From Candidatus Poribacteria bacterium (GTDB lineage Bacteria; Poribacteria; WGA-4E; WGA-3G): 6,318 nucleotides of DNA. Positions 4,591 to 6,318 of this stretch are shown here, in pieces. Under the pieces are notes generated by a model that did not search any database, was not told the DNA's origin, and saw only the letters and a list, made by a program, of their open reading frames with translations. The stretch covers positions 1 through 6,318 of the forward strand of contig JAPPMR010000960.1 of NCBI GenBank assembly GCA_028818995.1, given 5' to 3'. Positions within the stretch are counted from its first letter, which is position 1, and every line of letters begins with the position of its first letter. Position numbers and translations under genes: made by a program.

Positions 4591-4632
4591 CTAAAATCAA
4601 ATCTTGATATGATAGAAATAAGGAGATTTTAA

Positions 4633-6318
4633 ATGAAAACCTTAATTTGGAGTTGCTTTGTTTTAGTTTTGATAACCGGGCAACTTCACGCGGATGAGAA
4701 TTTAACGGATAACAACAAGATTATGCTCACCCTTGATAGTGGGCAAGAAGTACACATAAAGGGCTTTATTGCCCCAGTTGAATACACACAAGATAATTTC
4801 CATGTAACCTGGGATACATTGGCAAATCTGCGGGTTGCCGAGCCAGAGAAGCAGTATCCCGAAACCGTTTTCCGCGCTTTTCTGCCGAACCAAACAGTTT
4901 CCATTGGTAAACTCTGGCAGATAAAGGAGGAGGGTGTTCTCACACTGCTTCGGCAATTGCATCCAAATCCGCATCTGGACATGCACATTAATATGGGGGA
5001 TTCCCGTGGTTTATGGGCATGCTTGCGCGCTTACAACGATAGGTTTGCCGACATTGTGTTTCGGATTCATGCCGAGTTCAAGTTGAAAGATGGGTGGTTT
5101 ACGCCCTCACAGTTCGCGGGACATCTTGTGATTGACCGAATCGGAAAGAAGGTAGCGTTTTTTGAGATGCGGGTTCCTGAAGCACTGATAAATTTTGATG
5201 TCAATAAGCAACATGAAGGTGCACAAAGTTTTGGAACGGACATGGGTTATTGTCCGCAAATAGAGCTTGGTGGCGGAACACAAGATATTTTACAAAACGC
5301 TAAATTTACAGAGGCTATCACTCTGGAAGAAGCAGAACGTCTTTTAAAATTACGTTTCTATAAGTCGCAACAAATTAACTGGGTATCAATAGACGAAGCA
5401 TTAAAAATGTCACCTGCACATCAGAAGCCTGTTCATGCGATTTCAATAAACGGACCGCTTGATGACGAATCGTGCTGAGGGAGCGGCAAAAGCTTGAGGG
5501 CAGTTGTCCTCTCCGATGACCGAGTCGTAAAATTCCTGAACGAAAATTTCATCAACACGTGGGTGTTCAATGCGGACTTAGGACGTTCCCTCAGTTTACA
5601 AGATCCTATTGCTAAGCGGCGCAAGCGAGAATCCAAGACGTTTGATACTACGCACGCGTTGGCACAAGCAATCATGAAGGGATGGAATGAGTATTCCCCC
5701 GCGGATTGTTTAGTTATCTCGTCTGAGTTTGAATTGATGGGTAGCCTACCGGTCAATGAGTTGCTTACTGTACAAGATCCTGCTGAGAATTACCTGACGT
5801 TTCTCCAGGACTCCTTAGCGAGAAAAACACCTGGTCTGAGCGGAGGTGTCGCGAAACCTTCATCTAAAACTGATTCAGAAGACCTCCGCAACTTAGATAG
5901 TCCAGTCACGGGAAGTTTGAAAGTAACACTCACTGATGAAAAACCCGAGCAGCAAGTCCTTAACATTTTCCGAACTTCAAAAGAGGGTTTTCAAGATTAT
6001 ACTGTCGTTGAAATTGACGCAACAGCGTTTAAAAATGGCGGCACACTCTTACTCAATATCTTGGTTGGGAATGCTGAATCTATGGGTTCGTTTGATCTAT
6101 ATGATGCCAAGACAGAGTTACCAAAAACGGGTATGCCTAAAGGTGCACTTGCCTCCGCATGGGATATTCGACCTGGTAAAAGTAAAACAATCAAGTATGA
6201 TTTTGAGCAGGGTCAAGCCTTTAAGTTAGGTGCTACTGGTAGTTGGTTCAGTGAAGAGGGGAGCATTAACGCTTTTCTTTTACGAATCTCTGTAGAGACG
6301 GAACTCGGAAAAGAAGAC
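4633..6318 (+). CDS. selN: Selenoprotein N (SelN/SELENON)-like exported oxidoreductase with in-frame TGA = selenocysteine; 3' end beyond window
   Basis: ATG at 4633 follows AAGGAG (4620-4625) by 7 bases. The frame has one TGA (5476-5478, codon 282) and is otherwise open for 562 codons to the window edge. Residues 1-20 are a Sec signal peptide (positive K2, hydrophobic core, probable cleavage after LHA), so the protein should act outside the cytoplasm. Matches to animal SelN, recalled from memory, run throughout: IVFRIHAEFKL (141-151), WFTPSQFAGHLVI (155-167), DMGYCPQIEL (203-212), then LDDESCUGSGKSLR (276-289) and FLNENFINTW (301-310). The region 265-400 resembles a thioredoxin/UAS-like fold, with SCUG as the redox dyad C281-U282. 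Animal SelN is an ER membrane-associated redox protein linked to calcium-pump control. No clear EF-hand is seen here. Residues about 405-562 are an extra beta-rich extension. A truncated 281-residue product ending ...DESC is the alternative if TGA is a true stop. Confidence 0.88.
5476..5478 (+). other. In-frame TGA read as selenocysteine (Sec282, SCUG motif)
   Basis: The codon context TCG-TGC-TGA-GGG encodes Ser-Cys-Sec-Gly, the SCUG active site known from selenoprotein N and similar to the GCUG tail of animal thioredoxin reductase. Coding character continues unbroken downstream in the same frame with family-specific conservation (GSGKSLR). The other four complete or partial genes with visible stops use TAA or TAG and contain no in-frame TGA, so a general reassignment of TGA is not supported. 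Confidence 0.88.
5479..5514 (+). promoter_or_regulatory. Putative bacterial SECIS element
   Basis: Just after the TGA, GAGGGC (5496-5501) pairs with GUCCUC (5506-5511), 6 pairs including one G-U, closing the 4-base loop AGUU (5502-5505). GGA (5480-5482) with UCC (5512-5514) may add a lower stem across an asymmetric internal loop. The loop begins 23 bases after the TGA and has G in its second position, within the usual rules for SelB-binding bSECIS hairpins. It lies inside the coding region (GSGKSLRAVVLS), as bacterial SECIS elements do. Confidence 0.65.

Follow-up and report, generated by a model that had tools for sequence, protein, structure and literature searches.

We analyzed a stretch of 6,318 nucleotides from a Candidatus Poribacteria bacterium (contig JAPPMR010000960.1; the whole stretch is referred to as the window), of which positions 4633–6318 on the forward strand carry a gene related to that of selenoprotein N (SelN; SELENON or SEPN1 in animals). 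The reading frame comprises 562 codons and is open apart from one TGA, at codon 282 (5476–5478), in the context DDESC-U-GSGKSLR. Based on sequence comparisons, the product is very probably a Poribacterial relative of animal SelN, with selenocysteine (Sec) as the predicted reading of the TGA; it would act as an exported selenol-thiol oxidoreductase. An initial annotation of this DNA had proposed a bacterial SelN homolog, and our analysis supports this reading. The single in-frame TGA, which the annotation placed within an SCUGSG motif, was confirmed when the sequence was re-read: the S-C-TGA-G codons lie at 5470–5481, with the active-site pair formed by Cys281 (TGC) and the predicted Sec282 (TGA; 5473–5478). 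When read with translation table 11, the gene yields a 281-aa protein and a downstream 275-aa frame that is open at the window end. The related locus L001 (Candidatus Poribacteria RHO2_bin_17, for which the lineage suggested in the annotation is correct) encodes a protein 97% identical to the window protein over residues 1–562 and has the same TGA. As its stop codon immediately follows residue 562, the window likely holds the whole selN-like gene minus the stop codon, which would lie just beyond the window end.

In BLASTP comparisons the window protein matched the SelN record of the coelacanth (P0159) with 130 bits (9e-37, 30% over 297 columns); the match covers window residues 80–316, flanking the active site on both sides. 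A human SELENON sequence, used as an approximate version of the protein, gave 139 bits (29% over 315 residues); this sequence is supported by UniRef records named Selenoprotein N, one of which it matched at 99%, and by a partial human record with 100% identity. Against the coelacanth record, a shorter Poribacterial form of SelN scored 128 bits across 350 aligned columns. Alignment A1, which combines four bacterial rows with three from vertebrates, has 40 invariant columns, located on both sides of the active site. Judged from these alignments, the homology to SelN runs from the N-terminal domain through the SCUG site into the initial part of the thioredoxin-like domain. It thus extends beyond a generic thioredoxin motif, as had been suggested, and continues downstream of the site; the motifs named in the annotation recur in SelN with substitutions (in the human protein WFSPAQF, LDDQSC, and LNESFISTW). 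No EF-hand was matched by Pfam in the window protein (P0001), and the vertebrate EF-hand segment has no bacterial counterpart in A1; the Pfam EF-hand match of the coelacanth protein itself is weak. As the EF-hand is lacking, the window protein is a SelN homolog rather than the animal form.

The TGA site was surveyed in loci that were mostly picked from the best rows of a genome search with the window protein and are not a random sample. After removal of duplicates, 173 domain rows were obtained, of which four stop short of the site; the other 169 have TGA (167), TCA (1), or GGC (1). Counting duplicates, the aligned cores contain 187 in-frame TGAs, every one of them in the same column, and together with the 167 of 169 copies this places the TGA far from chance; its presence in so many copies also speaks against a sequencing error. 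Twenty additional loci contributed 22 more TGA copies, again in one column (only TGA-bearing copies were listed, so that this count has no denominator). No Cys ortholog was seen: a Cys codon was absent from the 169 copies reaching the site, and a Cys residue from 16 public protein pieces that span it. The two non-TGA copies read as DNA, L053 (G076:C102:42436) and L086 (G039:C82:176666), both retain the stem downstream of the site; in the GGC copy, which encodes Gly, the loop G is missing.

This downstream stem is part of a predicted bacterial selenocysteine insertion sequence (bSECIS), GAGGGC-AGTT-GTCCTC (5496–5511 on the forward strand, apical loop 5502–5505), with a folding energy of −8.9 kcal/mol for positions +15 to +45. 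The bSECIS model, as set out in PMC13188914, describes a loop of 3–9 nt with a G in the first two positions, a stem of at least 4 bp, a distance of 16–37 nt from the UGA, and a minimum free energy of −7.5 or lower. The window hairpin, with its AGUU loop, a stem of 6 bp, and a loop start 23 nt after the UGA, falls within these limits. Applied to +15 to +45 across the family, the model passes 176 of 189 copies, vs. 0–18 of 188–189 at eight control offsets. Codons following the TGA are frozen when measured against the codon background of the family itself: Arg+21 is AGR in 167/167 copies (background 25%), Leu+33 is CTC in 160/167 (18%), Ala+24 is GCA in 149/151 (37%), and Ser+6 is AGY in 147/147 (20%). 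Frozen codons form a six-pair hairpin from +20 to +35, of which the loop is mostly AGGU or AGUU, and pair +23/+32 shows compensatory changes (G-C in 102, A-U in 16, and G-U in 10 of 145 unique sequences). Folding of +15 to +41 gives this hairpin for 126 of 145 sequences. Compared with synonymous randomizations, folding is stronger at the site (mean z of −1.43, 140 sequences), and at eight other offsets it is not clearly so (z from −0.33 to +0.30). By inspection, the short form of SelN has a different stem, with the loop GGUC.

The machinery for Sec incorporation is present in related genomes. A tRNA-Sec (78 bits, anticodon tca) adjoins SelB in all three related genomes tested, including that of the 97% relative, and SelA and SelD scored above the cut-off in the same three; the absence of this machinery, on which the initial annotation would have been given up, was therefore not seen in these relatives. 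A single in-frame TGA interrupts the SelD match in each of the three (L044, L045, and L046). SelB passes in 75 of the 84 phylum genomes, and the tRNA-Sec family does so in 74, in some cases weakly; 59 of the 64 genomes with SelN have SelB, and 57 a strong tRNA-Sec.

Several observations weigh against this reading of a Sec-containing, exported SelN homolog. Gly, Thr, or Ser replaces Sec in some members, so that Sec is not universal. Thirteen of the 189 copies fail the bSECIS model, 11 of them with energies above −7.5 (−5.0 to −7.3) and two with other folds; pair +23/+32 is non-standard in 17 of 145 unique sequences, and when 48 bases from the UGA are folded, the window and two of eight other printed examples favor a longer alternative hairpin. 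Three of the 64 SelN genomes gave no match to SelB and no strong tRNA-Sec; these may be incomplete assemblies. SelB is present in 16 of 20 genomes without SelN matches, so the machinery is by itself no predictor of SelN. Selenium in any of these proteins is a prediction from their genes. The export signal, a hydrophobic N-terminal segment (residues 1–20, 4633–4692, forward strand), is likely, as judged from the sequence itself; no evident signal peptide is seen at the start of the short form, so cellular location may differ between copies.

The window protein comprises three domains, all encoded on the forward strand. The N-terminal SelN domain (approximately residues 30–236, 4720–5340) contains the FRIHAEF and WFTPSQF motifs, and no good match to its fold was found in the PDB. 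The thioredoxin-like domain (residues 246–398, 5368–5826) has a fold nearest to thiol-disulfide oxidoreductases such as DsbH, with the redox residues immediately preceding helix 1 of the thioredoxin fold or at its beginning. The C-terminal β-sandwich (residues 423–555, 5899–6297) lies outside the match to vertebrate SelN. In the mechanism we propose, SelB bound to the hairpin would bring Sec-tRNA-Sec to the UGA, and the resulting SelN-like protein would be exported. The Cys281–Sec282 pair, which directly precedes helix 1 of the DsbH-like domain, would then cycle between the selenolate-thiol and selenenylsulfide states and in doing so reduce disulfides of envelope proteins, with the N-terminal SelN domain probably holding the partner and the C-terminal β-sandwich targeting it. 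A Sec protein of the SelN family with a main role in the handling of peroxide or selenium/metal, instead of disulfide reduction, appears unlikely, though it deserves consideration. Prokaryotic selenoproteins of various kinds have a Cys directly next to Sec (PMC13188914, Table 1), and the many copies per genome would suit scavenging or binding; against such a role, the closest fold is that of thiol-disulfide oxidoreductases, and PMC7474598 characterizes animal SelN as a reductase.

That the TGA is a true stop, leaving a pseudogene or two separate proteins, is how public protein predictions present these genes: the 240 listed public relatives gave 244 aligned pieces, among which 135 terminate immediately ahead of the site and 93 begin after it. 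We regard this as highly improbable, as the TGA stands at one exact codon in nearly all copies, the residues and codons downstream of it are conserved, and the frame runs on into matching SelN residues. The other 16 pieces read across the site and have Gly there in 13 cases (P0002–P0012, P0014, and P0017), Trp in two, and Thr in one (P0013), as might be expected if this lineage used TGA for an ordinary amino acid (Gly or Trp). The confinement of all in-frame TGAs of the aligned cores to one column, the presence of SelB and a tRNA-Sec with anticodon tca, and the finding that the sole Gly copy read as DNA has GGC and not TGA leave next to no room for this explanation; the Trp records would be consistent with a gene caller set to code 4. 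Convergence, in which generic thioredoxin folds would share the SCUG motif alone with animal SelN, is most improbable in spite of how common the thioredoxin fold is, as approximately 300 residues are similar, mostly upstream of that fold and in a domain without a good PDB match, and conserved A1 columns lie within this N-terminal domain.

The family of predicted Sec-containing SelN proteins is widespread in Poribacteria. With the window protein as query, matches were found in 64 of 84 genomes of the phylum, up to 26 per genome, a count that includes some matches to the C-terminal domain only; among the matches listed for this query, nearly every row has one internal TGA. A second subfamily, used as query, matched 64 of 386 relatives, all of them among the 84 phylum genomes, and none of the other 302. 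The A1 search identified 8 intact TGA copies in G001, 13 in G003, 12 in G082, and 9 in G084; six more rows are pieces. Tandem arrays of up to eight selN genes were present in the fetched loci, with 7–8 genes in L073, L074, and L084; in L050, L073, and L074 the flanking proteins were identified by eye as leuC/leuD-like. The short form, of approximately 390 residues and without the C-terminal domain, has the same two neighbors (matched by eye) in 4/4 genomes compared (L094, L096, L102, and L103), lacks an evident signal peptide there, and has a GGUC-type loop in most. Poribacterial SelN occurs in at least two architectures: multi-copy and often tandem genes that include the C-terminal domain, and the short syntenic copy (approximately 390 residues) that lacks it.

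Upstream of the window gene, a ribosome-binding-site-like AGGAG (4621–4625, forward strand) was read 7 bases 5′ of the ATG. The further genes of the window (PhyH-like, xylose-isomerase-like, YjbQ, and GH32) have the same order in L001. Extracytoplasmic function (ECF) sigma factors are encoded next to selN at L001:7891–9219, 9428–12430, and 12455–13684 and at L003:5050–6396. Those at L001:7891–9219 and L003:5050–6396 end in a β-sandwich of the SelN C-terminal type, and the one at L001:9428–12430 in a BNR/sortilin-like repeat region; these factors are possibly regulators of the same envelope function. Some SelN genes (P0028 and relatives, and L002:2578–4599) carry a further C-terminal domain, with the motif KMRKVEGIWLIYD and no confident Pfam match.

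SelN was apparently animal-specific according to a 2007 study (PMC2375036), and a sponge possesses it (PMC3473315). Among the papers listed by searches of the open-licence literature for bacterial SelN and for Poribacterial selenoproteins, we found no report of a bacterial SelN; subscription papers and preprints lie outside that scope and may contain one. In an unrooted tree of 65 sequences the animals (six vertebrates) form one clade (support 100) on a long branch and the Poribacteria two deep clades (97 and 99); the tree covers these two groups without a third lineage for rooting, and the direction cannot be read from it. Poribacteria are a phylum known from sponges. The distribution of SelN, in animals and Poribacteria, makes transfer a possibility worth testing. 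Tentatively, and with more doubt than confidence, we suggest that SelN may be a bacterial invention: in Poribacteria it would have grown into a large family of selenol reductases of the envelope, and it could have passed to early animals from a Poribacteria-like sponge symbiont, with the EF-hand and an ER (endoplasmic reticulum) anchor added later to give a calcium-sensing muscle protein. The distribution known so far, animals and a sponge-associated phylum, renders the origin of SelN testable. A bacterial branch of SelN that has a decoding signal of its own and reaches 13 intact copies per genome (four genomes counted) extends the prokaryotic selenoproteome by one family, of which many proteins in public databases are cut at the UGA. 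In humans, loss of SELENON causes muscle disease. The Poribacterial genes make SelN chemistry testable in bacteria, and the EF-hand-free forms are usable for structural and enzymatic work on the human protein, for which no structure had been solved as of 2020 (PMC7474598).

DsbH, AGR2/AGR3, and the ER protein 1sen, which we take to be TXNDC12, lack the N-terminal SelN domain and are not known to contain selenocysteine. The C-terminal domain is likened to the PPC/collagen-binding β-sandwich domains of secreted proteins, loosely, as the best rows reach 6–14% identity and other β-sandwiches score almost as high; unlike those, it occurs as a fusion with SelN and with ECF sigma factors. With the 119 families of known prokaryotic selenoproteins in the 2026 inventory (PMC13188914, Table 1), many of them redox-related, the Poribacterial protein shares a UGA, here predicted to be read by SelB, with a bSECIS, and SelN is absent from that table. 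Cys homologs exist for almost all selenoproteins, as stated in PMC12013277, whereas no Cys form of Poribacterial SelN was seen. Bacterial SelO, in the description of the same source, offers a parallel as a family once held to be eukaryotic and later found with Sec in bacteria, but it is an unrelated protein and is thought to have evolved from Cys forms (PMC12013277). Animal SelN shows calcium-dependent reductase activity on SERCA (PMC7474598). It shares with the Poribacterial protein the N-terminal SelN domain, the S-C-U-G site, and the subsequent thioredoxin-like segment, which align at 30% over 297 residues. The window protein differs in the missing EF-hand, the extra C-terminal β-sandwich, and the many copies per genome, and is presumably exported, whereas animal SELENON is located in the ER lumen. 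Animal selenoprotein genes carry their SECIS in the 3′ untranslated region; in Poribacterial selN, unlike animal SELENON genes, the hairpin directly follows the UGA.
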